Assembly: GCA_037974665.1 (NCBI GenBank)
Contig: CM075783.1
Coordinates: 12,977,762 to 13,041,761, forward strand
Direction of reading: 5' to 3'
Source: Ehretia macrophylla
Lineage: Eukaryota > Streptophyta > Magnoliopsida > Boraginales > Ehretiaceae
DNA length: 64,000 bases
Part shown: positions 27,060 to 63,821 of the stretch, in pieces
Layout of the letters: every line of letters begins with the position of its first letter
Numbering within the stretch: the stretch's first letter is position 1
Position numbers and translations under genes: made by a program
The notes under the pieces: generated by a model
Told to the model about the DNA's origin: nothing
Seen by the model: only the letters and a program-made list of their open reading frames with translations
Database searches by the model: none

Positions 27060-29940
27060 GATAGTTCGTAGCCCCGTGGTGGCCATTGGCCACCAAACGG
27101 CGACAAAACGTAAAAGTTTGGTCGCCCTTTGGTCGCTAATGGCTACGAAGGGGCTACGAAGTATCCATGTTCATAAAATGTTAGGTAGATTTAAAATATA
27201 AAAATTAATAATAACAAATACATTAGAAATTTGTTCAAAATCTATTTTGTTTTGATTGAAAATATATTATAAGGTTTACTCAATAGTATAAAGTTATACA
27301 TATTTAAGATATAAGAGTATAAAAATGAATTAATGATTAATAATTCTATATTTAACAAAAGTGAGATTATGAAATACAAAGTGAAAAACAATGAAGATTG
27401 TATCATTGTCATTAGTTTTTTGCACATCAATCAAATTGTAATTTTGCACTAACATCAATGAATTAGTATAAATTGTAGAATTACTATAATAAAAGATAAT
27501 ATTTAGCTTAGAAGATCTACTTAAAACAAAAGAATTAATTATATGAAAGAAATTTTTTTTTTTGCATACTAGTTCGTAGCGTCGTGGTGGCCATTGGCTA
27601 CTAAACGGCGACAAAAAGTAAAAGTTTGGCCGCCCTTTGGTCGTCAATGGCTACGAAGGGGCTACGAAATATTCATGTTCATGAAAATTTAAGTTAATTT
27701 AGAACATAAGAATTAATAATAACAAATACATTATAAGTTTGTGTAAGATCTTTTTTGTTTTGATTGAAAATATATTATAAGGTTTACTCAATGGTATAAA
27801 GTTGTATATATTTAAGATATAAGAGTATACAAATGAATTAATGATTAATAATTCTATATTTAACAAAAGTGGGATTATGAAATATAAAGTGAAAAACAAT
27901 GAAGATTGTGTCATTGTCATTAATATTTCGCACACAATCAAATTGTAATTTCGCACTAACATCAATGAATTAGTATAAATTGAAGAATGACTATAATAAA
28001 AAATAATATTTAGCTTAGAAGATCTACTTAAAACAAAAGAATTGATTATATGAAAGAAATTTTATTTTTTGCATGCTAGTTTGTAGTATCGTGGTGGCCA
28101 TTGGCCACCAAACGGCGACAAAAAGTAAAAGTTTGGTCGCCCTTTGGTCGCCAATGACTACGAAGGGGCTACGAAATATTCATGTTCATGAAAATTTAAG
28201 TTGATTTAGAACATAAGAATTAATAATAACAAATACATTACAAGTTTGTGTAAGATCTCTTTTGTTTTGATTGAAAATATATTATAAGGTTTACTCAATG
28301 GTATAAAGTTGTATATATTTAAGATATAAGAGTATTAAAATGAATTAATGATTAATAATTCTATATTTAACAAAAGTGGGATTATGAAATATAAAGTGAA
28401 AAACAATGAATATTGTATCATTGTCATTAGTTTTTTGCACACCGATCAAATTGTAATTTCGCACTAACATCAATGAATTAGTATAAATTGAAGAATGACT
28501 ATAATAAAAGATAATATTTAGCTTAAAGGATCTACTTAAAATAAAAAAAAATTGATTATATGAAAGAAATTTTATTTTTTGCATGCTAGTTTGTAGCCTC
28601 ATGGTGGCCATTGGCCACCAAACGGCGACAAAAAGTAAAAGTTTGGTCGCCTTTTGGTCACTAATGACTACGAAGGGGCTACGAAATATTCATGTTCATG
28701 AAAATTTAAGTTGATTTAGAACATAAGAATTAATAATAACAAATACATTACAAGTTTGTGTAAGATCTCTTTTGTTTTGATTGAAAATATATTATAAGGT
28801 TTACTCAATGGTATAAAGTTGTATATATTTAAGATATAAGAGTATGAAAATGAATTAATGATTAATAATTCTATATTTAACAAATGTAGGATTATGAAAT
28901 ATAAAGTGAAAAACAATGAAGATTGTGTTATTATCATTAGTTTTTCGCACATCAATCAAATTGTAATTTTGTACTACCATCAATGAATTAGTATAAATTG
29001 AAGAATAACTATAATAAAAGATAATATTTAGCTTAGAAGATCTACTTAAAACAAAAGAATTGATTATATGAAAGAAATTTTATTTTTTGCATGCTAGTTC
29101 ATAGCCTCATGGTGGCCAAACGACGACAAAAAGTAAAAGTTTGGTCACCCTTTGGTCGCCAATATTTTTATAAATAAATAAATTCATTTATTTAGAATAA
29201 AATTAATAATATAAATTAAAAGTTGTTTTTAGATAATATAAAACATATTTACAAAATTTAATGTTAAATAAATTTAGTTATTTAATATAAAATTAATTAA
29301 TTTATAATTTATTATAACAAATTTTAGCTTTTGAATATCATTTTGTAGTCTCGTGGTGGCTATTGGCCACCAAACGGCGACAAAAAGTAAAATTTTGGTC
29401 ACTAGTTGGTCGCTAATAGATATGAAGGGGCTACAAATTAAAAATATAAATCAAATTATTTATATAAATAAATAAATTCATTAATTTAAAATAAAATTAA
29501 TAATATAAATTAAAAGTTGTTTTTAGATAATATAAAACATATTTACAAAATTTAATGTTAAATAAATTTAGTTATTTAATATAAAATTAATTAATTTATA
29601 ATTTATTATAACAAATTTTAGTTTTTGAATACCATTTTGTAGCCCTGTGATGGCCATTAGTCACCAAACGATGACAAAAAGTAAAAATTTGGTGGTCATT
29701 TGGTCGCTAATAAATATGAAGGTGCTACAAATTAAAAATATAAATCAAATTGCTTATATAAATAAATAAATTCATTTATTTAGAATAAAATTAATAATAT
29801 AAATCAAAAGTTGTTTTTAGATAATATAAAACATATTTATAAAATTTAATGTTAAATAAATTTCGTTATTTAATATAAAATTAATTAATTTATAATTTAT
29901 TATAACATATTTATATATATAAAAGATATAAATGAACAAA
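27060..29940. repeat. Higher-order tandem array in the CACTA left arm (about 508-base and 250-290-base units)
   Basis: The marker TAAAAGTTTGG(T/C)CGCC starts at 27111, 27619, 28126, 28636 and 29134, giving units of 508, 507, 510 and 498 bases. Shorter units follow at 29388 and 29682. Each unit holds a cluster of the GGTGGCCATTGGCCACCAAA inverted motif and GGTCGCCCTTTGGTCGC words, plus a long AT-rich spacer. Units are near-identical by eye. Open frames within, on the minus strand, repeat with the unit and are not genes. Confidence 0.9.
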
Positions 29941-30001
29941 AAAAAAAATTAGGGCTTGGTGCGACCAAAGGGCTGGAGGCACTTTGGTCGCTGCCCACAC
30001 T

Positions 30002-30036
30002 TAAATCAGAGGGCAGCGCCGCTGCCCTCTGATTTA
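30002..30036. repeat. Perfect 35-base GC-rich palindrome
   Basis: The arms read TAAATCAGAGGGCAGCG and CGCTGCCCTCTGATTTA, 17 bases each, perfectly complementary around a single central base. It lies between the left tandem array and the microsatellites of the CACTA element. It is followed by a (ACCCC)n-like tract at 30037-30080. Confidence 0.9.
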
Positions 30037-30120
30037 CCCCAGACCCCACCCCACCCCACCCCAGACCCCACCCTACCTCTCTAATGTATATTTTTTTTGT
30101 TTTTATTTTGCTTATTACAT

Positions 30121-30321: not shown

Positions 30322-30370
<49 letters not shown>

Positions 30371-30527
30371 AGATCTATAAATATAAAATAGGATCTATAT
30401 ATAAAAAAAAAGGGAAAAATGAAAATAAAAAAACAGAAAAAAGCAATACATATGTATATGTGTGCATTGCCTTTTTTCTATTTTTTTTAATTTTCTTTTT
30501 TTTCTTGGTTTTATATATAGATCTTAT

Positions 30528-30604
<77 letters not shown>

Positions 30605-30760
30605 TTTTGCTTTTTTTTATTTTTTATTTTTCATTTTTCCCTTTTTTTTTATATAGATCCTATTTTATATTTATAGATCTTATATATATATATACATATA
30701 TACATACATATATATATATATTATAATTTTTTTCTATTTTTTATTTTTTTTATTTTTTTA
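30121..30760. repeat. Microsatellite cluster, (GT)n and (TA)n
   Basis: Contains (GT)n at about 30164-30217, (TA)n at about 30325-30358, a long (TA)n at about 30533-30602 and shorter tracts to 30720. The segment between 30230 and 30720 repeats a phrase (TTTTTT-TTAATTTTC, TATATAGATCTTATATA) in direct and inverted form. It forms part of the CACTA interior. Confidence 0.9.
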
Positions 30761-40507: not shown

Positions 40508-41700
40508 TGTTAGTCTAAAGGCCTTCTAATCTTGGTTTTGATTATAACAAACCATGATTATATTTAATGAGTTTGTTTAAGTGTGCATGAGTGAGATGAA
40601 TCAAGATTGACTTCGAATTCAAGTTCATCAAGCTAAAGAAGAAAGAAGATCATCCATCAACTCAAGGAAAGATAAAGATTCGAAGAATGAAGATAGAGTT
40701 ATAAGGATGGAGACGAAAATCATAAGGGTACCGGTTGGGACTTAATCGGGGTTTGGGTCTTGCAAATGGTATATACTCAATGATGATTCTTAAAAGTATT
40801 TTTGAAATATTCATCTATTTTTCAAAAAGATTTTACAGAAGACTTTATAAAAGAAACATAAAAAAACCCTAAGCCATTGCAACTTTTGAGCAAATCAGAC
40901 AACCCCAAGAGAACCGGTTGACCCGTGCCAAAAGGGTCTTCTGCCCAAGGCCTCTTCTGTCGACCGGTTGAGCATGGGTTGTCCGGTCGGGCCAAAACGC
41001 TATTTTAAAAATAGAGTCATTTTATGAACGTTGCAAAGCATTTAATGCATACCTTTCAGTCTCTATTAATGTCTCTCAACAACCTTCTTCCAATTATTGA
41101 TTCAAAGCAATTACTCTTGATTTCTAACACTATATTCATCTTTGAATCACCATTGTGCTATACTATAGTAAAAATTTGTGAGCAATATAAAGATAAACAT
41201 TCATTGTATTCATCTACCCTAAAAAGGGGCTTTTATTATTTTCTCAAACACTTATCAAAATAGAGAGTTAAATACTTTGAAAGGAAGGACTTCCTTGTCA
41301 AAGGTGTTGGGGTTAAAGCTTTGTATTGAAAATGAATTTTCTATTGTAAAAGCTTGAACTATAGTTGTAGTTGGTTTGTGGACTCACCAACATTTGAAGA
41401 GTCACAATAGTGAAGATTGTTGAAATCCTAAGCGGAAGCTTAGGTCATGGACTTAGGTGGGGGCTGAACCATGCTAAATCGCGATTTGCAATCTCTTTCT
41501 CTCAACTCTCTCTTACCATTAATTTTTGCACATTAAGTGTTTGATATTTTTCCTTACTCACATTTTATATTGTTAGAGTGCATATTTGTTTAAGATTATT
41601 TTTTATTGATCATTGCTAGTGTATTGCCTAATCAAAAAAGTAGTAGTATTGCCTATATAACATAATTCACCTCCCTCTTAGGTTAAATTAAGGGACACCA
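40508..41700 (+). repeat. 3' LTR of the copia element
   Basis: It begins TGTTAGTCTAAAGGCC and ends AAGGGACACCA. It aligns with 20824-22005 with scattered substitutions and small gaps. The right flank, ATTCT, is the candidate changed target duplication. Confidence 0.9.
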
Positions 41701-44345: not shown

Positions 44346-44405
44346 ATGATAAGATTGTTATTATTATTATTATATATTTGTTATTTTCTTAAGAATAAAA
44401 ATGAG

Positions 44406-44443
<38 letters not shown>

Positions 44444-44522
44444 CAACAACAACAACAACAACAACAACCACAATAATCATAATAATAATAATAATAATGG
44501 TACTAGTAAAATAATAATTATA

Positions 44523-44566
<44 letters not shown>

Positions 44567-44726
44567 GACTTGACATTTTGTTGTTATATACATTTATATT
44601 TTAAAAGGACTTTTTTTTTCATTTTTTAAATAATAATAATATCAATATTAATAACAAGAATAATAAATATTATCCTTTATTATTATGAACATGTTATATT
44701 TAAAACGATACTATTTTCATTTGATA

Positions 44727-44814
<88 letters not shown>

Positions 44815-44815
44815 T
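44346..44815. repeat. AAT/AAC trinucleotide microsatellites
   Basis: (AAT)n tracts lie at about 44409-44440, 44478-44567 and 44727-44812, with (AAC)n at about 44441-44470. The translated runs of Asn or Ile in this area are artefacts of the repeat. Confidence 0.95.
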
Positions 44816-47800
44816 AAAAGTAATATTTATAAATGATAATTATTATAGTAATAATAAGGATTGTCCTACATCATTATATACATTGAAGGTATTTTGTTCA
44901 TTTGATAAATAATTTATCAAAAGGATTCTTTTGGATGTTAGAAGGAAAATTAGTCTTCAAAGAAAATATAGATATAGTCTGGAAAATTGTATTTTGTATT
45001 TGGATTGGAGGCTCAACTTAGTTCAAGTTTGCCTTCTTTGTAATGTTCAAGGATGTAGAATACAATGATTTACTTGCCTAGCAAAAAAAAAAAAAAAAAG
45101 TGAAGGGCAATTAAACTATTCATATCAACAATCTTAATTGTTTATTCCCTGAAATTATGTCTAATGGAATGGCATGTACACATCCCTTGGTGGACTTCAG
45201 TTGCACCTTTAAGTTCTGCACCTGCATTATGTGACTAATTTATGATGAAGCCTAAAGGACAAACACTAATAATGTATTTGGAATTGCATAAAATGAACCA
45301 ACCAAATCCTTAATTAACTCCTTTTGGCAACATAATGTCTTTTGGCATTTCTAATCTCCTAGAATTTACTTCATCTAATTAGAACGAGTGTTCATCAACA
45401 ACAAATTCGAATATAGAGACTGGGATATGCACGTAGGGGCCAGTTGAAACTGCAGCATCATTGACCCTACAAACTAAATACTTTAAATATATAAATATTT
45501 TAAGGATAAAATGCACTCGGTCCTCTAGCGTGATTCAGAAGTTACATATTGTTTCTTGTGTCATTGAAAGTGTTAAAGAAATTTCTATGTTTTGACAAAA
45601 GGTTTCACGTAACCCCACTCCGTTTATCTTTGCGTCAATTTTATACCTCGCGCACTTGGAGTGCAACTCTTTTTGTTTGCTTAATTGCTTCCCACCCAAA
45701 TGACCCTATTTATGGACATGAATACCCTTTCCCACATAGAACCATGTTGAACATAGAAAAATATAAGTCTTTACGCATATCCAACACTATATATAAATCC
45801 CATTCCAATGATTTGAATCATTAGCTTTACTTTGCACATATCTAACACTATATTAAAAACCCCATCCCAATTATTTGAATCATCAGCTTTACTTCTCAAG
45901 TCTACAGGCTGATCAAGAGAGGCTTCTCGCATATCAAAGACAACAAAGAGAATCGCTATTGTCACCACATCCTTGATAATTCATGTTGTTGTCATTGTGG
46001 TTGTTGTAGTTGGAGCTACTCGTGGCAAATGCGGGGTAGAGGTTCACATTCAACCCTTCTTACACCACCAAATAGTTTCTTCAGAAAAAGGACGAAGGAG
46101 ATTCTTTAAAAAATGAGATGAAAACAGCTTGGAATTGGAAAAAAAAAGATTGTGCTTGATAAGGGTAAAGTTGTCTATACACCATTTAGCGCCTGAACAT
46201 GCTGCGGAGGTCCGAATCCCTGGGACTCATTATGTTTCCCAAAAAGATTCTTTATCCATTAGTATAAATAGCACATGAACAGTCACAAAATGTAACTCAT
46301 ATTTTACTTAAAATAGTTATATATTACTATGTCCGTACCATTAAATTATTAAGCCCTAGGATTATATAATTGACTAGATCGTCGTAAGTAGTACGTCGAA
46401 TATAACACCCATTGTTCCATTTCATTTTTGCAGGTCTTAAGCTCGGGTTGGACAAGCCAGATTTTGCACCATAGCAATGCTCATACCTTAGATCGAACAA
46501 TTTGGATCCCAGCTGACGTGTTATATAAGTGTTGTAACTTTGAGGATTGATAGGTTGATTTTGATTGACGGTCAACTCTCTCTCCATATAGTTAGGGCTC
46601 TCTCTCTACAATAAGGGTTCTCTCCCAACACCTTTGGAAAAATTAAGGATTTAAAAATGTCAAATATGTAATTCCCTACTGGTACAACATAAAAGTAAAG
46701 AAGTCATTTAATGTTTTTTTTAATGCCGCTAGCTTAAGTGAAAGCCAGGGACGGTATGAATCCTTTCAAAATTACACAAAATTCTTTTTGGACTTTTGAT
46801 GATATAAGGAGATAAAATATTACTTTTAAATAACACAGGAGGACGGAACATATGTTACCCAAAGTTTGAGTAGACTATTACCAAGTTCCCTTCCTTCACT
46901 AATTTATAAAGGTTTGAGAGTTTATTTCCAGCCATAATTTTCATTGATGACTAAAACTTATAAGTTGCATTGCAGATCACCCCAAATTTACCCAATAGAT
47001 TGCATTACAAATCAATCCAAATTTACCCAATCCTACATTCACAGTGATCATTTTGCTATAATATAATTCCTATGGAACATTTATCATCTAATCCTTGGGT
47101 AACATATTATGTGAGACACAGTAGTAAGCGACAAGATGGAGCAAAAATGCAACAAAGAAAAAGGCTGATCATATTCACACATTTCATCTAGGAGAGATCC
47201 AATTTGTCTCTTGCAAGAACACCACAAGTCTAGCAAAAGTAGAGATAATACAACATGCATACCATTAGCTAGCTATGGGTATCCTATCTAGCTAAGGCTT
47301 TTATCTAGGGAAGCACTTCAGTTCACTTGTGCGGCCGTGGAGATCTCAAATACATAGAGGGGCCTGCTTTTACGCCACAACTGCGTGGCCGTAGGGTCGA
47401 ACTAAAGAATATTTCTTTCATCTATAAAAGAGAAGATGCCAACGACAATAAGATTAATCAGTAGAATAATCCTACAAACGCCTTCTTTCATCTGGCTCAA
47501 GTAGGTAAAATGGACACATCGTTGTTGCTTCACAAGTCGTTCAGCCAAACCAGGATGTGGCTTCCAACAAGAGCGTAGACTTCATCCATCTGCAGAAGCA
47601 ATAGGAAAAAATTACAATATAAAACGCTTTTCCATGATACCTCAAGAGAAATGGAACATAATGAACTTAAGATCTTAAACTACATACAGTCAAGAAGATA
47701 AAGTAGATGATGACGCTCGTATCGTCTCAACTAGTTAGAACATCTGACTGGGAATTTGCCTCCCAATTTTCAAACTCACTACTTTCTTCTGCAGGCTGCA

Positions 47801-48076
47801 CTTGACCGAAAACTAGTAGTCACTATCATTCATCTTTGTTCTGCTATAATCTTCTATTGCTATAACAAAATTTTGCAAAAAGATGGAACTCTGATATGCA
47901 TTAAAGGAGCATGAGTTATGTGATAATGGAAAAACATTCATCCTGAACATATTGGATGCAATCGTCTTGCTAATTAGAAACAAGCCATCATCTCATAGAA
48001 TTCGCTCATTTTCACTGTTGTTGTAAAGAGAATGCATTAATAGGCATCAATACTTCATACTTTCTTTGACATCAAT
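44816..48076. other. Intergenic DNA, no gene supported
   Basis: No conserved frame was recognised. Two imperfect 61-base tandem units start CATATCCAACACTATAT at 45776 and CATATCTAACACTATAT at 45837. Near 46160-46220, AGGTCCGAATCCCTGGGA resembles a polymerase III B box and may belong to a SINE. The last five bases, TCAAT, are the left target duplication of the palindromic element. Confidence 0.4.
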
Positions 48077-49757
48077 TGATACAATAATTACAGCACTTAA
48101 ACCACTGTATTTCTACTATATTTGCATCATAATTTAGGACTAAATGCAAACACTTATATACTTTTGATGCAATATAGGATGATCTCGAAAAGTGAAAATC
48201 AGACCCAAAATGATTCAAATTGCAAACCAAAGAGTTGAAGAACGAAGAAGATTGGAGAACCATGGGCAAAAGGAGCTCGTAGAGAAAGAATTTAGCCCAA
48301 CTAAGCGTAGAAACGAGCTCAGGATGCTGATTTTAGCAAGAAATGACCATTTCAGAATTTTGCCTGAACATTAAATCGGGCTGGCATCAGTGATGCGAGC
48401 GAGATAAGGCCCCAGCGTGTGCCCGGCATACATGGCCAGCATGGACACACAGGCACTGCCCGCGTGGCCACGTCGGCTATGCCCGTGTGGCCTTGCATGA
48501 CCATGGCCATGCGTAGGCTAAGGGGCCACCACCCATGGCCACTCAACCTTACATTGACCACGACAATCAAATGCCACTAGAGATCCAATAGAATTCCTAG
48601 GAGGGGTCTATAAATAACCCCCAGAGACAACATAGAAAATATAATTGTTTAGTTTAATTATTAATTAGAAATAATTTAGATTTAATTAATGTTAATGTTT
48701 TTAATTTAGTTAATTTTAATTCCTATTAAATATTTAGTTAGTTTAATTTAATAGTAAATTGTAGAATACCGAGAAAGTTCTGCCAGAGTAGTTCTTACTC
48801 GGGGGAAATTCTGCCCGAGTAATAGTTCTTATACAAGGGAAGCTCTGCCTGAGCAGTTCTTACTCGGGGGAAGTTCTACCCAAATAGCTATTTTTCTGTC
48901 AGACCTCTGCTCAAATTCGTGGAATCAGAAATACAAAGTCGTCATATCGGGGGAACTTTTCTTGACTCTCTTATTTGTACAACTTTTATTTATTATTATG
49001 TTTGAGTAGAGCTATTATCTAGGGGAAGATATTGTAAATGACAGTCTTGTAATCTATGATCTCAGATTCAGTTAATTTGATTCAATTGCAATATATGACT
49101 TGCTTTAATTCAGTATTATCTTTCATACGTAATGCTTTTAAGTAGATGTTATGATTGCTTTATTTTCATGCCATATATCCAAGCTTTAGTAGTGACTCAA
49201 TAGATTGACAACCTTAGATTCCATGAGACTATAGGTTAAACCATAGTTTCTAGACTAGTGGAGATGTGAATACTTAGTTAAAACATATTGTTTTCAACGA
49301 CAGATCCATTCTACAGCTATATAATGGACTCGTAGATGGAACAACACCTATAACAGAGTTAGTAATCGGGACTTTAATCGGAGTAAGGTAATTAACTACG
49401 TTGATGCTTATAGCTTAACCTTTGCGTAGAATTAGAAAATCTTGGATGTCGAGCCTAGATTAATTGTCTCATTGCATATCCATTCCCCCTAGATTCTTTT
49501 TCCTTGTATTCAACAAATACTTAGTTTATTTTAGTTGTAGTTTAAATTACATTTCTGCACGTCACTCAAACTATTCTTCAAAACTGTCACTTAAATGCTT
49601 TAACACTTTCACACTACTTCACTAACTAACTAACGCACTTCCCTGTGAAAATTGACTCCGCACTCAGAGCACACTACACTACAAGATCCGTGCACTTGCG
49701 GATTATTAAAACTTGGTTGTTTTACACCTATTTATAAAGCACAACCCAATCGCATCA
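48077..49757 (+). repeat. Left LTR of the palindromic element
   Basis: Starts TGATACAATAATTACAG and ends CCCAATCGCATCA. A TATA-like GGGGTCTATAAATAACCCCC lies near 48604. A run of imperfect direct repeats, (A/G)TTCT(G/T)ACTCGGGGGAA type, lies at 48775-48880. It is followed by five bases and the primer site. A GC-rich island at 48380-48540 is rich in GGCCA and TGGCC words. Confidence 0.85.
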
Positions 49758-49763
49758 AATTTT

Positions 49764-49781
49764 TGGCGCCGTTGCCGGGGA
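49764..49781 (+). promoter_or_regulatory. Primer-binding site, left arm
   Basis: TGGCGCCGTTGCCGGGGA lies just after the LTR. This is the site type used by Athila/Tat elements (family knowledge: aspartate-type tRNA). The right-arm copy at 56653-56670 differs at two positions (TGGCGCCGCTGCCAGGGA). Confidence 0.85.
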
Positions 49782-49991
49782 AGCACGGTGTAGTTTAGTT
49801 TTTAATAAAAGTAATTGCGAATTTGCTTTAAGTGTTGTAATTACTGTTTATACTTGTTTTATACTATTTTATTTATATTACTGCTTGTAAAGTATATTAG
49901 TATTATTAATCTTGTATTTTTATTACATACTTAAGTTTACAAAGTTCTTGTATGCACGGGAGTCGTTCTTTAAAACTGGAACTCGCCCCGT

Positions 49992-50980
49992 TTGATCCCG
50001 AGCTCCAGAAAAATTTGCGTAGGAAGTCATAGTTCACAATGGCGGATCAAGAAGGAAATGTTCAAAACCTTCAACCTGTTAATCGACCCACTAATGACTC
50101 TTCATCAACATTTCTCTCCGGGCGATTACAATCCTGAATTTGTCATAGCTCCACTGGCTCTTGGCAATGTCAATTTTGAGCTTAAGACAGGGACCATTTC
50201 GAATCTTCCTTTCTTTTATGGGAAAAGCAATGAAAGCCCTAATACTCACATCATACAATTCTTGGAGGCATGTTCTATGCTTCATATCCCTAACGTGAGC
50301 CGTGGGATTATTCAACTGCATTTGTTTCCATTTTTCTTAAAAGACAAAGCCAAACAGTGATTAAATTTTCGAAAATTTTTACATAGGTTCTTTCCAATGG
50401 CCAAGACCATTACTTTGCGAACAGACATCATGTCATTCGTTCAGTCGGACTTAGAGCCCTTTAATGAATCATGGGAAATATTTATTGATCTAAAGAATCA
50501 ATGTCCTCACCATGGGTTTGCACGTCACGAATTCTTGCATTATTTCTTTAAAGGTCTTACACCTCAGCAGAAAATGATGGTAAATGCAATAAGCATGAAG
50601 GTTTCGATAACCTCACAGCGGACAAAGCTTAGGATAAAATATAAAATATAGCTGAAAACTCACTTCAGAACATAGCTACAAATAGAGAAACTAAGAGTAC
50701 CCACAACCTCCCAAAAGAGGGCATTGTTCGAGGTTAACTCTAATTCCCATTTGACTGATAAAGTAGATGCCCTAGCCCAGCAAGTTGAAAAATTCATCTC
50801 TCTAGGGTCTACTTCTTCACAAGCCCCTCAGATCACAGAAGTATGTGTTGTATGTTCTGCAGTAGATCACTCTACTTTGGACTGTCCAATAGGTTCACAA
50901 TTTCCTAAGTTCATGCAAGAACAAGTCTTTGCCACCCAAGGATATACGAGAAATTATGATCCTTACTCCAATACGTAAAA
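49992..50980 (+). pseudogene. Athila-type gag, left arm
   Basis: Conserved blocks: FSPGDYNPEF, NFELKTGTISNLPFFYGKSN, IIQLHLFPFFLKDKAKQ, FNESWEIFIDLKNQCPHHGF and FFKGLTPQQKMMVNAIS, in gag order. CVVCSAVDHSTLDCP near 50845 is a zinc-knuckle-like C-x2-C-x4-H-x4-C. Frames change at about 50360 and 50640. The product would package element RNA; this copy is dead. Confidence 0.82.
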
Positions 50981-51789
50981 TCTTGGCTAGTGAGACAATC
51001 CCGCATTTTCATGGCAACAAAGGAATCAAGAGCCTCAATTTCCTTAACAACAACAATATCAGAATCAATAATGAAACTTTGAGCCTCGTTTCCCATAACA
51101 ACTATATCAAAGGCCACAAAACTCTAACCCTTCTGGTTTTTACCCAGTCTAGAAAGATCAGTTCCGAACACAATGGAGCAATGTTCCTGGTCTTCCTCCT
51201 ACACAGTCATCATCTGATGACAAGTTTGACAAACTATTACAATTGGTCCAAGTTCAACAACAGTCTATTGCTAAACTGAGAAGCTGGCCCAAACTCTAAG
51301 TAAGAGAAACGAGGGTGCACTTCCATCTCAAACCGTGGCAAATCCACAAGAATAGTGTTGTACTATCCAAATCGAGATTGTCCAAGAACAGGCTAAAGTC
51401 GTGACTACCCTTAGGAGTGGAAAGATTATAGATTACCAGGTTAGAGAAAAAGGTAGGGATGTTCTTGAAGAATGAAGAAATAGAGGAACTAGAGATAGAG
51501 GTTTTAGGCAATGATGTCCAAGACTCCCGTAGGAATGAGAACTTAGTGGTAGAGTTAACAGTTGAATCCTCATCTCAAGCACTTTTCCCAACAGCTCTGT
51601 CCCGTCTGAAACCGATAGATGATCCTAAACAACTCAAAGTCTTAGAGCATTTGAAAGACATTTAGATCAATTTGCCATTAGTTGAGGTAATACAACAAAT
51701 TCCAGCCTATGCCAAATTTCTAAAAGATCTATGTGTGAAAAAGAGACGGAACAACCCCATTCCTATGAAGGTCCATCTTACTGAAAAGG

Positions 51790-52366
51790 TTAGTAACATC
51801 TGTACTAAAGGACTACCTCAAAAGTACAGTGACACTGACCTTTCACCATTCCATGTTTAATTAATGACCAATGCATTGAAAATGCCTTGCTAGACTTAGG
51901 ATCTAGTGTTAACCTAATCCCTCACACAGTTTACCAAAGGTTAGGTCTTAGAGTGTTAACATCGACAAATGTAACCCTCCAACTGGCAGGTAGATCTGAG
52001 CGAAGACCTTGAGGTGTTGTAGATGATGTCATCGTTAGAGTAGAAAAATTTATGTTCCCAGTGGATTTTATTGTGTTAGATATGGACCTAGGCCTTAATA
52101 ACAAAAATACCACTCCCATCTTATTAGGCAAACCATTATTAGCAACAACTGATGCTGTTATTTACTATAGAACGGGAATGCTAGAACTAACATTTGGGAA
52201 CATAAAAACAAAATTCAGGGTTGTTGATATAGCTAACAAGTTGAACCAAGATGAAGAAGAAGAACGCTTTCATCTAGATACCATTGATTCATGCATAGAT
52301 GAGTTTGTCCAATTAATCTCAACTCCTGATGAAAAAAATAGCCGAGTTAGAATGACTATTGTATGA
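51790..52366 (+). pseudogene. Retroviral-type aspartic protease region, left arm
   Basis: Frames give ALLDLGSSVNL-like sequence near 51885-51920 (active-site DLGSS position) and then, from 52052, FPVDFIVLDMDLGLNNKNTT and ILLGKPLLATTDAVIYYRTG. These are the second half of gypsy proteases in this clade. A TGA in the RRP-GVVDD block and frame shifts interrupt it. Confidence 0.75.
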
Positions 52367-52638
52367 ATGCGACATTTCACCTAAAATGATCGTCTCCGTT
52401 TCCGTTGTTGCTGATAAGTAACAACTCATTTCCTTAAAGTTTCAGACTGTCCCACGATTGAGTCCTCACCAACTTTGGAACTCAAAACCTTGCCCCAACA
52501 TCTTAAGTATGCTTACTTAGGACCCGATGAGACCCTTCCAGTCATCATTGCCTCTGACTTGACTACCGAGCATGAAGAAAAAATATTAAAAGGTCCTAAG
52601 TACACACAAAGAGGCAATAAGGTTGGACAATTTCTGAC

Positions 52639-53048
52639 ATGAAAGGAATTGATCATTTTGTGTGTATGCACAAAATTTATCTCAAGGAAGGAATTACTCA
52701 TTCTCGACAATTTCAGAGAAGACTAAACCTAAAGATGGGTGATGTCATCTACAAAGAGATCAAGTTACTTGATACAGGTATAATATACCCAATTTCTGAC
52801 AATCCATGGGTAAGTCCGGTACAAGTGGTACCGAAGAAATCTGGGATTACTATGGTCCCAAATGACAAAAAAAAAAGCTAATTTCTACACTCACCACCAC
52901 TGGGTAGCGTGTATGCATTGACTATAGAAAGCTCAATTCTAAAACTAGGAAAGACCACTTTCTTTTACCCTTCCTCGACCAAGTCTTAGACAGAGTAATC
53001 GAATAAGGCTACTACTACTTCCTGAATGGGTATTCAGGTTATCCAATT
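52639..53048 (+). pseudogene. Gypsy reverse transcriptase, N-terminal part, left arm
   Basis: LLDTGIIYPISDNPWVSPVQ and VVPKKSGIT, then GWRVCIDYRKLNSKTRKDHF-type residues over two frames, and YYYFLNGYSGY. The sequence then leaves the family just before the catalytic Asp pair region. The right arm stops at the same residue. The enzyme could never have been complete in this structure. Confidence 0.8.
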
Positions 53049-53292
53049 TGGGTCTAATTAGATCAAATAATTAACTAAAAAAACAAATAATTAACTAAAA
53101 AAATAACAACCTATTTTAGCCTCAGAAGGGGTATTTATAGACCCCCTCCCCCCCAATTGATCTAATTGGACCCTTTTTAAAACAAATAATTAACTAAAAA
53201 AATAATAATTTCCTATTTTAGTCTTTGGAGGGTATTTATAGACCTCCTCAATTAATCTAATTGGACCCAAAAAGGGTCCAATTAGATCAATT
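53049..53292 (-). repeat. Centre of the palindrome: two tandem copies of an LTR promoter segment
   Basis: On the minus strand the phrase GGGTCCAATTAGAT(C/T)AATTG, then GGGTCTATAAATACCCC or GAGGTCTATAAATACCCTCC, then AAAATAGG and TTTAGTTAATTATTTGTTTT occurs twice. It corresponds to the TATA region of the LTR (48580-48650). The centre is AT-rich apart from a C-run at 53143-53153, and short inverted copies of CCAATTAGATCAA flank it. Confidence 0.75.
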
Positions 53293-56200
53293 GATTAGAC
53301 TTGAATACCCATCCAGGAAGCAGTAGCAGCCTTGTCCGACTACTCTGTCTAAGACTTGGTCGAGGAAGGGTAAAAGAAAGTGGTCTTTCCTAGTTTTGAA
53401 ATTAAGCTTTCTATAGTCAATGCATACACGTCACCCAGTGGTGGTGCGTGTAGAAATTAGCTATTCTTTGTCATTTGGGACCACAGTAATCCTAGAGTTT
53501 TTCGGCCCCACTTGTACCAGACTTACTCATGGACTGTCAAAAATCGGGTATATAATACCTGCATCAAGTAACTTGATGATCTCTTTGTGGACGACATCAC
53601 TCATCTTTGGGTTTAGTCTTCTCTGAAATTCTCGAGAAGGAGTAATTCATTCCTCGAGATAAATTTGTGCATACACACAGAAGGATCAATTCATTTCAAG
53701 TCAGAAATTGTTCAACCTATTGCCTATTTGTGTGTACTTAGGACCTTTAATAGTTTGTCTTCATGCTTGGTAGTCAAGTCCGAGGCAATGATGACTGGAA
53801 GGGTCTCATCAGGTCCTAAGTAGGCATACTTAAGATGTTGGGGCAAGGTTTTGAGTTCCAAAGCTGGTGAGGACTCAATCGTGGGACAGTCTGAAACTTC
53901 AGGGAAATAAGTTATTACTTGATCGTTCTTATCTAGATCAGCAACAACGGAAGCGGAGGCGACCATTTCAAGTGAAATGTCGCATTCATACAATAGCCGT
54001 TCTAACTCGGCTATTTTTTTATCATGAGTTAAGATTGATTGGGCAAACTCAACTATGCATGAGTCAATGGTATCTAGATGAAGGTATTCTTCTTCTTCAT
54101 CTTGGTTCAACTTGTTGGTTGCATTAGCAACCCTGAATTTTGTTCTCATGTTCCCAAATGTTAGTTCTATCATTCCCGTCCTACAGTAAATAACATCATC
54201 AGTTGTTGCTAAGAATGGTCTACCTAATAAAACGTGAGTAGTATTTTTGTTATCAGGGCCTAGGCTCATATCTAACACAATGAAATCCACTAGGAACAGA
54301 AATTCTCCTACTCTAACGATGACATCCTCTACAACACCTCGAGGTCTTCGCTCATATCTATCTGCCAGTTGAACGGTTACATTTGTCGGTGTTAACACTT
54401 AAAGACCTAACCTTTGGTAAACTATGTGAGGGATTAGGTTAACATTAGATCCTAAGTCTAGCAAGGCGCTTTCAATGCATTGGTCATTAATTAAACATGG
54501 TGAAAACTCCTAGGTCACTACACTTTTGAGGCAGTCTTCTAGTGCAGACGTTACTAACCTTTTCAATAAGACGGACCTTCTTAGGAATTGGGTTGATCCG
54601 TCTCTTTTTCACACACAAATCCTTCATAAATTTTGTATAGGCTGAAATCTATTGTATTACCTCAACTAATGGAAAATTGATCTTAATATCTTTCAAATGT
54701 TCTAAGATATTGAGCTGTTTAGGATCATCTATCGGTTTCGGACGGGACATAACTATTAGGAAAGGTACTCGAGATGAGGCTTCAACTGTTGACTCAACCA
54801 CTAAGTTCTCATTCCTACGAGAGTCTTGGACATCATTGCCTAAAACATCTATCTCTGGTTCATCTATTTCCTCAATTTCTTCAGGAACATCCCTAACCTT
54901 TTCTCTAACCTAGTTATCTATGGTCTTCTCACTCCTAAGGGTAGTCACGGCCTTAGCCTGTTCTTGGACAGTCTTAGTTTGGACAGTACTACACTGTCCT
55001 CATGGATTTGCCATGGTTTGAGACGAAAGTACACCCTTGTTTCTCTTACTTAGAGTCTAGGCCAGCTACCCAATTTGTCTTTCAAGTTTAGCAATAGACT
55101 GTTGCTGAACTTGGACCAATTGTAATAGTTTGTCAAACTTGTCATCAAATGATAACTGTGTAGGAGAAAGATCGGGAACATTGTTCCGTTGTGTTCGGAA
55201 CTGATCTTTCTGGACTAGGTAAAAACCATGAGGGTTAAGAGTTTTGTGGCCTTTGATATGACTATTGTGGGAAACGAGGCTCAAAGTTTCCTTGTTGATT
55301 CTGATATTGTTGTTGAGGAAACTGAGGCTCTTGATTCCTTTGTCGCCATAAAAATGCGGGATTGTCTCACCAGTCAGGATTATACGTATTGGAGTAAGGA
55401 TCATAATTTATTGTATATCATTGGGTGGCATAGACTTGTTCTTGCATGAACTCAGGAATTGTTAACCGATTGGACAGTCCAGAGTATAGTAATCTACTAC
55501 ATAACATACGACGCATACTTCTGTGATATGAGGGGCTTGTGAAGAAGTAGACACTCGAAAGATGATTTTTTCTACTTGCTGGGTTAAGGCATCTAATTTA
55601 TCAGTCAAATAGGAATTGGAGTTAATCTTGAACAATGCCATCTTTTGGAGATTATGGGTGCTCTTAGTTTCTCTATCTGCAGTTGTGTTATGAAGAGAGT
55701 CTTCAGCTATATTTTTTATTCTATCCCAAGCTTCGTCCGATGTGAGGTTATAGAAACCTCCATTACTCATTGCATTTACCATCATTTTATGTTGAGGTAT
55801 ACGACCTTTAAAAAAATAATGTAAGAGTTCATGACGTGCAAACCCATGGTAAGAACATTGATTCATAAGATCAATAAATCTTTCTCATGATTCATGAAAT
55901 GGCTCTAAGTCCAACTGAATGAATAACATGATGTCTGTTCGCAAAGTAGTAGTCTTAGCCATTGGAAAGAACTTATGTAAAAATTTCCGAATAAGTTCTT
56001 CCCAAGATATAATGACCCCTGCGTCTAAATGATTTAGCCACTGTTTGACTGCCTTTTAAGGAAAATGGAAACAAATGCAGTTGAATAATCTCACGGCTCA
56101 CGTTAGGGATGTGAAACATAGAGCATGCCTCCAAGAATTGTATGATGTGAGTGTGAGGACTTTCGTTGCTTTTCCCATAAAAGAAAGGAAGATTCGAAAT

Positions 56201-56480
56201 GGTCCCTATCTTAAGCTAAAATTGACATTGTCAAGAGCCAGTGGGCTATGGCAAATGCAGGATTGTAATCGCCCGGAGAGAAATGTTGACGAAGAGTTAT
56301 TGGTGGGTCAATGGGTCGATTAACAGATTGATTAACGGGTTGAGCTACTGGAAGAGGTTGAAGGTTTTGAACATTTTCTTCTTGATCCACCATCATGAAC
56401 TGTAACTTTCTACACAAATTTTTCTGGAGCTCAGGATCAAACGGGGCGAGTTCCGGTTTCAAGGAACGACGTCCGTGCAT
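53293..56480 (-). pseudogene. Athila-type gag, protease and reverse transcriptase start, right arm
   Basis: Mirror of the left arm. Gag begins near 56480 (DYNPAFAIAH region) with FARHELLHYFFKGRIPQHKM at 55800-55840. Protease lies in the 54398-53990 frame (FLVDFIVLDMSLGPDNKNTT, VLLGRPFLATTDDVIYCRTG). The reverse transcriptase start is at 53730-53293. The protease frame is longer and cleaner here (224 codons from 54398) than in the left arm. Its own frame breaks differ from those of the left arm, so the arms decayed independently. Confidence 0.82.
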
Positions 56481-56676
56481 ACAATAACTTTATAAACATA
56501 AGTATGTAATGAAACTACAAGATTAATAATACTAATATACTTTACAAGCAGTAATATAAATAAAACAGTGTAAAACAAGTATAAACAGTAATTACAACAC
56601 TGTTAAAACAAATTTGCAATTACTTTTATCAAAAACTAAACTATACCGTGCTTCCCTGGCAGCGGCGCCAAAAACA

Positions 56677-58394
56677 TGATACGATTAGGTTGTGCGTTAT
56701 AAATAGGTGTAAAACAACCAAGTTTTAATAACCCGCAAGTGCACAGATCTTGTAATGTAGTGTGCTCTGAGTGCGGAGTTGATTTCCACAAGGAAGCGCG
56801 TTAGTTAGTAAGTGAAGTAGTATGAAAGTGTTAAAGCATTTAAGTGACAGTTTTGAAAAATAGTTTGAGTGACGTACATAAATGTAATTTAAACTACAAC
56901 TAAACTAAACTAAATATTTGTTGAATACGAAAAAAAAGAATCTAGGGGGAATGGATATGCAATGAGGCAGTTAATTTAGGCTCGGTATCCAGGATTTTTT
57001 AATTCTACGCAAGGGTTAAACTATAAGCATTAACCTAGTTAATTACCTTAGTTTGATTAAAGTCTCGATTACTAACTATGTTATAGATATCATTCCATCT
57101 ACGAGTCCGTTATATAATCGTAGTATGGATCTATCCTTGTAACCTGGTGTAAATGGCCTGTTTTAACTAAGTAATCACATCTCGACTAGTCTAGAAATTA
57201 TGGTTTAACCTATACTCTCATAGAATTTAAGGTTGTCAATCTATTGATTCACTATTAAAGCTTGAATATATGGCACGAAAGTAAAACAATCATAACATCT
57301 ACTTAAAAACATTACGTATGAAAGACAATAATGAATTAAAGCAAGCCATATATTGCAATTGAATCAAGTTAACAGAATCCGAGACCATAGATTAAAATAC
57401 CGTCATTTACAATATCTTCTCCTAGATAATAGCTCTACTCAATATAATAATAAATACAAGTTGTACAAATAAAAGAGTCGAGAAAGGCTCCCCCGATATG
57501 ACGATTTTGTATTTCTGATTCCAGAAATTTGAGCAGAGGTCCAATGCAAAAATAGCTATTCGAGCGGAACTTCCTCCGAATAAGAACTACTCGGGCAGAA
57601 CTTCTACCGCATTCTACAATTTACTATTAAATTAAACTAACTAAATATTTAAAAGTAATTAAAATTAACTAAATTAAAAACATTAACATTAATTAAATCT
57701 AAATTATTTCTAATTAATAATTAAAAACAATAATTAAACTAAACAACTATATTTTCTATTTGGCCTCCAGGGGTATACAAACCCTCTAGGAATTCTATTG
57801 GACCCCAATGGCATTTGATTGTCATGGTCCTCATTTGTCAATTGGACCTCCAAAATCACCATGGTCCATGATTGGACCATGGCGAAATGTATTGTCGTGA
57901 CTCAATGAGTCACGGCAATGCAAGCTTGAGTAGTCATGGGTGGTGGCCACTTAGCCCACGTGGGCAGAGCCCGCGTGGCCACGTCGCATGGCCTTGCGAG
58001 ACCACACGGGTAGTGCCTGTGTGGCCATGCGGGCCATGTATGCCGAGCACACGCCGGGGTCCCGTCTCACTCGCGTCACTGGTGCCGACCTGGTTTGATG
58101 TTCGAACAAAATCTTGAAATGGGTATTCCTTGCTAAAATCAGCATCCCGAGCTAGTTTCTGCACTCGATTGGGCTAAATTCTTTCTCTACGAGCTCCTTT
58201 TGCCCCTGGTTCTCTAATCTTCTTCATTCTTCAACTCTTTGGCTTGCAATTTGAATTATTTTGGGTCTGATTTTCACTTTTCAAGATCATCCTATATTGC
58301 ATCAAAAATATATAAGTGTTGCATTTATTCTTAAATTATAATGTAAATATAATAAAAATACAGTGGTTTGAGTGTTGTAATTATTGTCATATCA
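56677..58394 (-). repeat. Right LTR of the palindromic element
   Basis: Inverted counterpart of 48077-49757. It shares the outer end, the GC-rich island (57940-58090) and the ATTAATTAGAAATAATTTAG stretch. The primer site follows at 56653-56670. It is slightly longer than the left LTR. Confidence 0.85.
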
Positions 58395-58399
58395 TCAAT

Positions 58400-58740
58400 C
58401 CATTACAAGACCAACGATATTGCAACATTTCAAACACCAACAAACTGCAGAATGATTGATGGGATTGAATAGTCAAAGTAGATCCAAGTAGTGAAAGCAT
58501 ATGCTACTACTTATAGAAACTTAGTCATAATCTTACGCGGTCTCCAATATATCTAGCCAAACTAGCAGACTCCTCTACATTGAACCACAGTGAAAATGCA
58601 GGCAGAATTATCCATATGTCCAAGCCTTTTTAAGTATTTGTGTCCGTCGTTCTTCAAATCAACTTTCAGCACCATTTGCCTCAAATTGGGCATGACCTCA
58701 GGTTGACAAAAAACCCTTGAACCTTACATTGTCATTGCTC
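58400..58740. other. Spacer between the retroelement and the J-protein pseudogene
   Basis: No coding signal or repeat was recognised here. Confidence 0.35.
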
Positions 58741-58985
58741 GTCCAGAAACATGCATGATCCATTTCCAGCTAGAAAAATGAACGTTAATTACTCTTTGAG
58801 AGATAAAGAGTGCCCAGAAGCTCTCTTTGATGTTCCAGGATCACCACAAGTCAATGGGCCGCGAAACTACTGATTCGGGTTGTACACAGGCTTCTGTGAG
58901 ATATAGGTTCAGTCAGGACACTCAAAACATTGAGCCACCTCTGACAACATGGCTTTGAAAGTCCTCCATTGCTGTAATTCTTACC
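58741..58985 (-). pseudogene. Broken copy of the last exon of the J-domain gene
   Basis: It aligns with exon 5 of the J-protein gene (61650-61399), including GGTAAGAATTACAGC, a GTCAATGGGCC word on the plus strand and the C-terminal end. The acceptor AG before GGTAAG has become TG. One extra A after AGC shifts the frame, and Trp became a stop after CPD. Intron-like sequence just upstream (59000-59025) also matches the gene's intron 4, so this is a DNA-level duplication and not a processed copy. Confidence 0.8.
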
Positions 58986-61398
58986 CAGTAATCGATCAAC
59001 AGAACCACCTAGCTATTCCTCATTCCATGTTCAATGAAAGATCTCTAACATAGGCTCTTAAACGAACATCGACAACTACCTTTTAACTTCTTCACATATC
59101 ATATTGTTTGGTGGAAGAGCATTGCACTCCAGCCCCTTTCACTATTTTCTCCTTTCCATTTTCCATATAGCAAGAGCTGCCCTCACATTTACTCACAAAG
59201 TAAGGATCAATATCAGAGAGACACAACGAGGCTTGCAGAGTATGTAACAATCTTCCCCTCCGTGACAGAAAGAAAACACAAAAGGAGAGAAAGAAAAAAG
59301 GGTATAAGGTGGAGAGTGAAGAGTGGAGAGGAAAGGATGAAAATACACTCCCAAGTAACTAGTTAGTAATTCTAAGAGTCCAGAAATCACAGAGGATTTT
59401 CTAGCCCAGCATTTACATCTATAAGAGAACAAGGGACAAATGCAATTGACTAATATACCATAACACTATTTGACTACAAGAATCACTCAAAATTCTTCAC
59501 CAAGAAATTTTTAGACTCAAAATAAGATAGCGAACTATTTAGAACTGCAGTACTCCCTCATCCTTTTACAAAGTCACCTTCAATCTCCTGTCAAGGATTC
59601 AATCTCCTGTCAAGGAGAGATGGAGAAGGTGAAAGAATGCTTGCAATCAAAGTGTCGTCGACAAATAGATAAATCAACACGGATAGATCAAAAGTAACAA
59701 CTTTCCAGTGCTAGCATATAAATGCAGAACTCAAGGACACATATTTCCACAAAGTCGAGACATCTAGAAGTAAGCAATGGTTGTCAAGAATCATGGATTT
59801 ACATTTTAAAACCAGTTAGTATTAAGTAGAGTTAATTCATGACCTTATAAAATGATCTTTGAATTAGTAATTTTTCGATGTGGAAAGAACGTATATTCCA
59901 CCAATGGTAATAGCAAATTTCATCATTTGTTCTAAAGTCGCCTTCAGTCTCCGGTCAAAAGAGAGGACGAGAAGGAGATATAACTTGGAGAACAGATTCT
60001 TAAATATTGTATTAATCATAAGTTCAACACTTACATACATGGGTTAACTAATTTACAATTACGAAGGAACTAACATGGACAATCACTACACATGCGCAGC
60101 CTTAAGAAAGGAAACAACTCAAAGTTTCAGTCATCCAAGCAGCATCCCACAAATATTATAGCTATAATAGCAATAAATAATCCAATGACAAGTAGCATGA
60201 ACAAGCCAAGTTATCAAGTTTCACAATCACACGCTATCCACTTGGTATCCAAATTCTAAAAGCTAAATAATGATATTTAAAACACACAATGAGTAACAAT
60301 CATCAAGAAAAAAGCCCCCCTCTAGCTTCCTACAAAAGCATAGATATCGTCCAACTGCAACCATTTATGCAAAATCACAATGCAAGGTGCTCTATTCCAC
60401 CAATAATGCCTTGAAAGAAGTGAAACAATCCAACTCAATATCTTAAAGGCATTCTCACACTGCATATGATTAAAGGATGTGAAACAGATGAAATTGGATT
60501 CTTTCTCAACTACTCAGCAACGCCGCACCAGGACGACTAATGGTTCTTATGCATCAAAGATACTGCAGCCTTCTTAAGCCGAAAGAAATCTGGGCAAGAA
60601 TCTTATAATAAATAGTATGACAGGGAAGCAGAATCGTCTAAGCGCATCAATGCATTATTTTCAAATATCCTGCAGGTGAAAGCAAGTTGTATTTTAAGAC
60701 GAGCCCTATTCTCCGATCCTATAGAATTGAGCAATGGATGTGATCCCCAAGTACCTAGCAGAATGCAGTGCAAAACCCCAGATGCAACACATCCTGAAGA
60801 TGTAATATAAGATGAGGACGAAAGTGAACAAAGAGAAAACAGAAAAGCAAACCCAATCAGACAGAATGAAAACATAAAAAGCTTCCAAACATCTCTTTCT
60901 CCTCTCTGTTGAATTACCGCTAATAGTTCAATCTAATGCAATCTCATATGTAATCCAGAAAGAAGGGAATCAAGGGATCACCTCATTCAACTTACTGCAA
61001 AAGACGCATCATCAATCGCATTACGCTGTCATCATGTATTATAATATTCAACTTGCTCTTAGTCCAATCATCATAAGACAACAATATCTAAAGTATTTTA
61101 AGCACTTTCTATTTAGTAACAAAAACTTTTGATAGACTTGGGGTTGACTGGTTTTATTAGTTCCAATAAGACAAAGCAATAAACATACAAACTACAACCC
61201 CTTATTGACAGGATTCTTTACATCTCTTCAAAACTGTGTCTTGCTCAAGTGCTCCTGACTCGGCCACAACAGAAGTCCAGATGCCCCTTGGGTGCGTCCA
61301 TTGTTCTCCAGAATTAAGTCCTTGGTTTCACAAGCACCATCTTCCTCCATAAGACAAGGCCTATGAAGAACTAACAGATCTTTCGCCTATTTCCACGT
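58986..61398. other. Intergenic DNA between pseudogene and J-protein gene
   Basis: No further exon of the duplicate was recognised. A phrase TTCAATCTCCTGTCAAGGA occurs in tandem at about 59578-59620, with a diverged relative (CCTTCAGTCTCCGGTCAAAA) at about 59940. This hints at a further local duplication. The 3' untranslated region of the J-protein gene should occupy the right-hand end. Confidence 0.35.
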
Positions 61399-63821
61399 TT
61401 ATCTGCAAACATGGTTTGTTCCATACATCTCCAACCCAGAAAAATGTAAATGTGAATTTCTCTCTGCGAAATTTGAGTCTCTGGAAGCTCTCCCTGAGGT
61501 TCCAGAATTATCAAAAGTCAATGGGCCACAAAACCATTGAGGAGACTCACACACAGTGTTGTGCGGAAAGCTGCACCAGTCTGGCGAGTCAAAACCTCGA
61601 GCCATCTCCCAGAACATGCTCTGGAGATCCTCCATGCTGTAATTCTTACCCTGTGCATAGTGATCATGGTGAATGAGTCAATAACCTTACAAGAACCAAC
61701 TAACTTTTCTTCATCCCATGTGCTACCATAGATCACAGACGTATATTCCAGAACAAACTTCTAACACCCATTTAGAATTTCATATTTTCATAATCAGTGG
61801 AAATACTCTTTTCTCAATAGGCCAATACACTAATATGTTCACTACTTGTCTTCCTAAGGCAACATACCCTCATATTCCAAGAAAAAGAAAGGATTGGTGC
61901 CAGTAAAAAGCAAAAAGGATTGCAAAATTGTTTTGAGACATGACTTTTTAAGAAGAATTTTAAGAAGAAAAACCTGCGGAAAGAAGAATCAAATCCAAAT
62001 TAAACATACCAAACCAACCAGGACGAAGTTATAAATTCACTTGTTTCTCTCTCCATATAAAATTCTATTGAACACCAACACAAAAAACAAGGCGGCATGA
62101 CGGGGAACTAGGGTCATTGGAATCAAAAAAATACATCAACCGAAGTAGAGTAAAATGGTTTCTCTTCATATAAAATTCTATTGAACACCAACACAAAAAA
62201 CAAGGCGGCATGACGGGGAACTAGGGTCATTGGAATCAAAAAAATACATCAACCGAAGTAGAGTAAAATGGTTAGATAGTGACTTGATGTACTCACAGTT
62301 TCCGAGTTCAAACCTTCGGCCTATCATTGTAACCCCCAAAGACAAAAAAATAAAGAAAGGAAAAAAGAAAACATCACAGATTTCATAGATATATACCCCA
62401 TACAGTCCAATGCTCTCACAACATACAATGTTATGAAGCCATAATATACATATAGTAGCTCTGAATTGTTTAGATAACAGATCACTTTAATATAATTCAA
62501 AATTGTAACTTTCTTCATCATATGTCAGCAAAATGATGCAGATCGAACTGCAACCACCAAATTGCAAACTATACTATGCTAGATGAACCTGACTGTATGA
62601 TCTCAGTATCTCAATTGTAACAAACAAGCACAAAGAAGAGACTTTATTGCATTGTGTGTGTCAAGAAACAGAGAAACAATTAGAATGAAAGACATATTTA
62701 CCTCTTTCTGCACATCCTCCACAAGGGATACCATTTCTTGTAGAAAATCAGCAAAGCCCTGATAAAATATCAGAACCAACAATCTATTAGTAAAGAATCC
62801 TGCAGTCATTAAGATGATGACTTTATTTAAACAGACTAAAAATATTGCAGCATACTCACCTCGACCTCATCCTCATCGTCCTCGGGGTCATATAATCCTG
62901 CATCATACATTGCTCTCTTCCTCCTATCAGACAACACTGTTCCAACCAAAAACTCAATAACCAAGAGGGCATAAACAATAATAGGCAAATTACAAAAAAA
63001 CCCTATTGTCAAAGTTACACGTTATACCTTATGGTACCCTCACTAATCTCATTACCCCATGTCCGATGACAACAGGAGATTTTGTACCACATTCTTAGAA
63101 ACAAAACAATATTAGATTATTACAACACAACGTGTAATTTTGACAAAATACATGAATATTTTTGGCAAAATAGCCGAAAAATAGCAGAGTGTGCCGTATG
63201 CAGACATTTAAGCATACAGAAGTATGGAAGGGAAAAAAAAATTGATGTGGTATACCAGAAAGGGATTTGCTTAGATTCTTGAATTGTTGTATCCATTATT
63301 ACCTGAATAAGCTTCTTGAATTTGTTGAAATTTTCTTTGGACTTCACTTAGCAGAGTAGGTGTCCTCGTCCACTTATCAGGATGCCATCGCTGCATGCAA
63401 ATATCAAAGCACCATAAAAAAGAAATGTTCCTTAATGTCTTAAGCATCAAGATATAGAACACATGTAATTCATTAACTATAAACGCTATTAAAAACAATA
63501 AATAAATAAATAATTTTTTTTAACAATTTAAATTTTTAAATGAAATAGTAAATTTTGATATACCAAAAGAGGGGCAGTAAATAGAATGAACTACACTCTT
63601 GATTCAAATTTCACAATCACTTATTTAAAACACAAAATTATTCATGAGCAAAACTCCGTCAATGTTAAAAACAACAAATAAATAATCCGGACCCGAATGG
63701 AGTTTTCACTTACCATAGCAAGCTTCTTGTATGCACGACGTATTTCTTCATCAGAAGAGTCCGAACCAACACCAAGAATGCTGTAATATGAACCAAACCC
63801 TTCACTAGTCTCCATCTCCAT
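61399..63821 (-). CDS. Small J-domain (DnaJ) co-chaperone, 193 residues
   Basis: Exons, minus: 63821-63714, 63390-63303, 62936-62860, 62758-62702, 61650-61399. They total 582 bases, all GT-AG and in frame. The J domain is residues 10-76: YYSILGVGSDSSDEEIRRAY is helix I-II, RWHPDKW carries the HPD triad that stimulates Hsp70 ATPase, then QRKFQQIQEAY and LSDRRKRAMYD. An acidic DPEDDEDEVE follows, then FADFLQEMVSLVEDVQKE and a Ser/Asn-rich tail ending TNHVCR. No zinc-finger (CXXCXGXG) or C-terminal DnaJ domain is present, so it is a J-domain-only class protein, probably cytosolic or nuclear. The start is the first of two close ATGs (MEMETSEG). It resembles a family of short plant J proteins of unknown client. 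A TATA-like TATTATAAAAAC lies just upstream. Confidence 0.9.
62045..62272. repeat. 113-base near-perfect tandem duplication in intron 4 of the J-protein gene
   Basis: CATATAAAATTCTATTGAAC through TCAACCGAAGTAGAGTAAAA is present twice with a period of 113 (62054 and 62167). The units differ by only a few bases at the left edge (CTCTCTC versus CTCTT), so the duplication is recent. Confidence 0.92.

Follow-up and report, generated by a model that had tools for sequence, protein, structure and literature searches.

A locus of the Ehretia macrophylla genome is described here in which two inverted 5' halves of elements of one Ty3/gypsy family, each with an LTR, a primer site, gag, protease and the start of reverse transcriptase (RT), lie tail to tail at positions 48077-58394. 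The best reading of this arrangement, to which we give a probability of about 0.7, is that integrase inserted, in a single event, a DNA molecule bearing two U3 ends. Integration as one unit had been proposed in an initial annotation of the same DNA, and it is supported by, and explains, the matching 5-bp duplication, the two U3 outer ends, the equal age and decay of the arms and their shared subfamily mosaic; it also explains the missing partner LTRs. The inverted double element seems to be an unusual, very old accident of retrotransposon copying, with a plain footprint where it was inserted. Positions refer to the window, i.e. the whole stretch of 64,000 nucleotides that was analysed (C20:12977762-13041761), and the assembly searched comprised 1.58 Gb in 20 contigs.

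The left arm extends from 48077 to about 53042 on the plus strand and the right arm occupies 53299-58394 on the minus strand. The inverted repeat was detected as 23 blocks with a complementarity of 85-94%, and the two arms align with 88.8% identity over 4866 columns (404 transitions, 141 transversions and 32 indels; K2P 0.123), so the facing LTR-gag-protease-RT arms of the initial annotation are real and were placed at the right coordinates. The left arm opens with a 5' LTR of subtype A containing a TATA box (TGATA...GCATCA, 48077-49757, 1681 bases), and the 5' LTR of the right arm, also of subtype A (56677-58394, minus strand, 1718 bases), is without 5 bases of the left arm's TATA box. Their termini are of the TG...CA type (TGATA or TGATATGAC at the start and ATCA at the end). 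The LTR starts face outward, TGATA at 48077 on the plus strand and TGATATGAC at 58394 on the minus strand, and therefore both outer termini are U3 ends, just as had been claimed. Each arm carries a primer site, TGGCGCCG(T/C)TGCC, which in the left arm reads TGGCGCCGTTGCC (49764-49776, plus strand) and which we take to be of the tRNA-Asp type; judged by this site, the closer lineage is presumably Athila/Tat.

The order gag, protease, RT is found in the left arm, with a gag piece at 50361-50651 (PF03732, E 5.8e-8), an aspartic protease piece at 51839-52012 (PF13650, E 2.9e-5) and an RT start at 52621-53042 that ends after GGTATTCAGGTTAT, all on the plus strand. Recognition of gag and protease by Pfam concerns left-arm pieces only, and the right-arm pieces scanned gave no gag, protease or RT match. 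The RT starts, neither of which has a Pfam match of its own, were assigned by alignment: the left one to 13 loci continuing into RT, and both to the C13 copy, which runs on into PF00078. The right RT start lies at 53299-53646 (minus strand) and ends after GGTATTCAAGT. The arms are broken fossils, with a longest open piece of 224 codons; that of the right arm (53724-54398, minus strand) has no Pfam match and falls between protease and RT by alignment with the left arm. An integrase following RT and RNase H is absent from both arms. The C13 relative has RT_RNaseH (1.2e-20) followed by Integrase_H2C2 (2.1e-4) and rve (1.1e-6) in piece L003, and the C8 relative has RT_RNaseH_2 (2e-11) followed by rve (1.2e-4) in piece L033; these weak but ordered integrase matches, scoring below the curated cut-offs, fit Ty3/gypsy.

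Both outer ends are flanked by TCAAT, at 48072-48076 and 58395-58399, confirming the identical direct repeats reported earlier. The probability that two 5-mers drawn at random from the surrounding DNA are the same is 0.00185 (about 1 in 540), and 5-bp duplications are what this family makes. Such a duplication was perfect in three of the five pairs with both ends read, namely the solo LTRs on C12 (GAGTT) and C17 (AAGAT) and the C18 element (AGGTC); the flanks were imperfect in the C2 (CTAGT/CCAGC) and C19 (ACGGG/AGTTA) LTR pairs, in which the pairing of the two LTRs is assumed. The claimed absence of second LTRs was borne out by blastn over the window, where neither a partner LTR nor a 3' half of the family occurs elsewhere. 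These data bear directly on the rival explanation in which two elements inserted independently in opposite orientation and a single RT-to-RT deletion, with filler at the joint, later fused them: it needs the TCAAT match to arise by chance, at the above probability, and we regard it on the whole evidence as unlikely.

As a query in the assembly, the left flank (47400-48080) returned only itself, and the right flank (58390-59100) returned itself and two weak partial matches, one of 71% over 232 bases in the window and one of 68% over 241 bases on C4. Thus the search of the assembly revealed no duplicated empty site, and an empty site with a single TCAAT, a check proposed in the initial annotation, was not recovered there, the flanks having no other full-length match. 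The same flank data argue against an assembly artefact or an inverted duplication following one normal insertion. In addition, the repeat ends at the LTR termini with the flanking DNA excluded, and numerous separate indels, besides an 11% divergence, distinguish the arms; we hold this explanation to be very improbable.

Other features of the window are recorded here. The weak local repeat of the right flank joins 58758-58989 with 61423-61654 (71%). Two direct repeats (20824-21999 and 40508-41693), separated by 19.69 kb and 87-94% alike, surround Copia pieces (gag_pre-integrs, rve, RVT_2) and are probably the LTRs of a Copia element enlarged by further insertions; inside this interval lie tandem blocks of about 508 bp (27011-29587) and about 294 bp (29163-30044) and inverted repeats at 30323-30721. 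Four open pieces on the minus strand at 11149-14302 resemble, as we presume, NPR1, and the one scanned (11713-12300) had no Pfam match. A minisatellite-like array with 9-bp steps is located at 44373-44875.

Both arms are equally decayed and thus of equal age. In the Tajima relative-rate comparison chi2 remained below 3.84 for all 15 outgroups (highest value 3.00), with left-unique/right-unique counts of 204/200 (L015), 186/186 (L002), 164/153 (L016) and 171/164 (L013). In the RT segment the left arm had seemed to evolve faster, an effect that disappeared over the whole arms, where the relative-rate counts are even. The K2P between the LTRs of the two arms is 0.138 and falls within the span of the values for the LTR pairs of four other elements, 0.093 (C2), 0.133 (C1), 0.153 (C16) and 0.219 (C18, 585 aligned columns). 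The LTR pair of C13 was unalignable over its length and was left out. At a substitution rate of 1.3e-8 per site per year, the K2P of 0.123 corresponds to roughly 5 million years, a figure that serves for scale only. For 12 of the 13 indels of at least 3 bases between the arms, the state in other copies was determined, in some cases from a single copy; ten of these appear private to one arm, and two changes of repeat length, one of 65 bases and one of a CAA unit, recur elsewhere. For two separate insertions the equal age is an unfavorable circumstance; the divergence of the arms, being about that of other copies of the subfamily, is in their favor.

The shared subfamily mosaic was scored at 154 sites separating group X (C13 and C5) from group Y (C2 and C10), each defined by two copies; for part of the LTR, C2 is the sole representative of Y. 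X states prevail in both arms as far as about arm position 2280, Y states between 2461 and about 4440, and X states again beyond that, and the arms agree at 123 of the 144 sites scored in both. The scoring covers the fetched copies, a minority of the genomic ones. Of these, three other non-reference copies (C19:26.46 Mb, C16 and C8) were scorable on both sides, and in no case does X prevail upstream, the C19 and C16 copies being mainly Y and the C8 copy mainly Y and mixed in places. In the Y region by itself, the left arm agrees with the right at 64 of 77 sites and with the C19 copy at 66 of 77. Four LTR loci that lack gag (L008-L011) likewise commonly show X states in the LTR. A search with the first 224 bases of the LTR gave 41 matches (40 of 1951 candidates scored), of which 11 places, counting the query itself, reach at least 86% over 209 bases or more. 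Among these 11 listed places, the subtype A LTR is followed by a match to the gag-RT of the arms in three, the two arms and C13, with a partial twelfth match on C17 left out; the C13 copy itself defines X.

In Arabidopsis, 27 of 32 new Onsen insertions are recombinant, according to the excerpted text of PMC5668417, and on that ground one shared mosaic suggests a single reverse-transcription event. By the same comparison, two separate insertions would usually differ in their mosaic, copies of the Onsen burst being mostly recombinant. Independent insertion would moreover require that, among the matches listed, the only two copies found with a subtype A LTR and a mainly Y pol sit side by side.

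Two further observations concern the distribution of the family. One locus, L005 (C1:77290984-77297500), has a pair of subtype A LTRs about 5.1 kb apart with a PPT-like tract before the second and no gag match between them, and is a possible non-autonomous derivative. At C19:26.29-26.47 Mb there are, among 40 scored, at least six related copies within about 180 kb on one strand.

Trees and substitutions, as judged from the sequences at hand, do not establish the arms as sisters, a point against single integration. Alleles exclusive to the left and right arms amount to eight doubletons, all transitions with no transversions, and other pairs containing an arm reach six; no indel of at least 2 bases is private to both arms. 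Private shared substitutions or indels were rejected as sister proof, there being none beyond background, and this lack speaks for two insertions. In two segments of about 1.2 kb (13 rows each), the right arm resembles the C6 (91.9%) or C2 (90.7%) copy more than it does the left arm (90.1% and 88.4%, respectively); the left arm, for its part, is nearer in the second segment to C10 (89.4%) than to the right arm (88.4%). The family copies radiate star-like. In the RT-segment tree the right arm and the C6 copy group together (83/79), the grouping of both arms not being rejected (p-AU 0.208); that grouping has a support of 25/0 in the middle-segment tree and of 77/74 in the whole-arm tree of eight rows. 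Transversions with both arm states recurring in other copies number 26 of 120 between the arms and, for an arm against C2, C10 or C13, 58/124, 64/134, 70/145, 67/149, 65/142 and 68/148. The low share between the arms speaks for single integration; a low share also occurs elsewhere (C13 with C5, 37/141; right arm with C6, 9/33) and is hence not specific to the two arms.

Identity of the arms was likewise dismissed as proof of common origin, other copies being equally close. For one 800-base stretch of the left arm, at least 21 other places outscore the right arm. Identity alone proves nothing, because inverted pairs at 89% seem to arise by nesting, as at C8:59086000-59110500 (L031-L033), where the U3 end of one element adjoins the LTR/primer-site boundary of the other. 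This C8 pair was set aside since it probably reflects ordinary nesting, and it suggests that inverted copies 89% identical can be separate insertions, a point for the two-insertion explanation. A locus considered as a second palindrome, C19:23984294/23996338, was rejected, being a minus-strand element with a PPT-preceded 3' LTR beside a separate LTR.

The two arms had been thought to end at the same base in RT. Their homology to RT in fact ends 3 nt apart, with 256 bp of non-palindromic DNA (53043-53298) between them: the left arm departs from RT after GTTAT and the right arm after GT, the left one reaching 3 nt further in RT coordinates. At thirteen loci, two of which overlap, the sequence passes the break and continues in RT, typically as ...GGTATTCA(A/G)GTTATAACC, with variants. 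The centre is a U3-TATA-R fragment of an LTR of another subtype, B, located on the minus strand, thus reading toward the left arm and in the sense of the right one. It contains a U3 hairpin, TATAAATA at 53132-53139 and 53233-53240, the TATA box and the R start, and is itself arranged in about 2.3 tandem units. As a query it gave 25 matches (all 19 candidates scored), the best other than itself being 82% over 121 bases, and it is closer to the subtype B LTRs of C2 and others than to subtype A, that of the arms (80% over 65 bases for the left one). Centre-like DNA lies inside or beside a family LTR in nine of the ten fetched loci, L019 showing no such LTR, and on this ground a MITE was rejected as the centre. 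The initial annotation also advised looking for other copies with the same arm junction. For the query 52940-53400, among the 82 matches listed (40 of 718 candidates scored), only the locus itself exceeds about 10 bases past either break.

This centre bears on each account of how the halves were joined. It resembles filler, in accordance with two insertions followed by deletion, and hairpin cutting could perhaps produce a near-symmetric deletion; breakpoints lying within 3 nt nevertheless weigh against two insertions, and a hairpin-guided deletion accounts for the near-symmetric break and not for the duplication. The self-primed palindromic cDNA of the initial annotation is not demonstrated: sisterhood of the arms cannot be proved, mutations private to the pair do not rise above background, and a 256-bp joint of another subtype is unpredicted by simple snap-back, which by itself leaves the centre unexplained.

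Under single integration, the inserted DNA would have been built from one recombinant type of element, present as two 5' halves in inverted orientation with their U3 (5' LTR) ends outward, and the element's integrase would have inserted it in a single step, giving rise to the TCAAT duplication. For the joining of the halves we tentatively propose that during reverse transcription the plus strand switched, in RT, onto its own or a sister strand. Stated in full, and with equal caution, it may be that a plant gypsy integrase accepted a product that had a U3 at either end and lacked a U5 end, formed when one recombinant plus strand folded back in RT with a piece of another LTR at the joint, and integrated it as a palindrome. 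Somewhat less probable, in our judgement, is the other route, a sub-case of single integration in which two full-length cDNAs were joined tail to tail, integrated through their two U3 ends, and later lost their 3' halves when the inverted-repeat centre was cut out near-symmetrically. Such a dimer agrees with the data no less than self-priming does: it accounts for the duplication, the near-symmetric and non-identical break and the filler, and makes self-priming unnecessary; it requires a second event, and remnants of 3' halves are absent from the window. The central 256-bp LTR piece would be filler taken up at end joining or at the strand switch, and its tandem units suggest end joining with copied filler.

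The interest of the locus is mechanistic. If the single-integration reading is true, two U3 ends suffice for concerted integration of a plant Ty3/gypsy element, shown in a natural genome, and aberrant inverted cDNAs can get into chromosomes. Such insertions are ready-made inverted repeats and could, if transcribed, yield hairpin RNA that initiates silencing of the family. Palindromic and autointegration products of retroviruses are likewise inverted DNA structures, known as unintegrated forms. Among the texts and excerpts covered by our literature search no inverted, two-U3 integrated plant LTR element was found, a result by which absence is not proven.

Within the assembly, the C8 pair is the likeness at hand, its inverted arms belonging to the same family and being 89.1% identical over 3.3 kb; it differs in being head to head, with an LTR in the middle and with 3' halves and 3' LTRs present. 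Onsen progeny resemble our locus in their mosaic make-up, family members having recombined in a burst; they differ in that the excerpted text of PMC5668417 describes recombinant insertions and mentions no inverted product. Closest in argument are the composite LTR elements of Sabot and Schulman 2007 (PMC1950507), which carry flanking 5-bp duplications and for which single integration of a template-switched, abnormal cDNA was argued. Here, too, a composite of two elements is flanked by a duplication of the length made by its family. The complexes of Sabot and Schulman (PMC1950507) are in the same orientation and have three LTRs and two complete cores, whereas ours consists of inverted halves with only a 256-bp LTR piece between them in place of an internal third LTR, both outer ends being U3 and the rest of RT, everything downstream of it and the 3' LTRs being missing.
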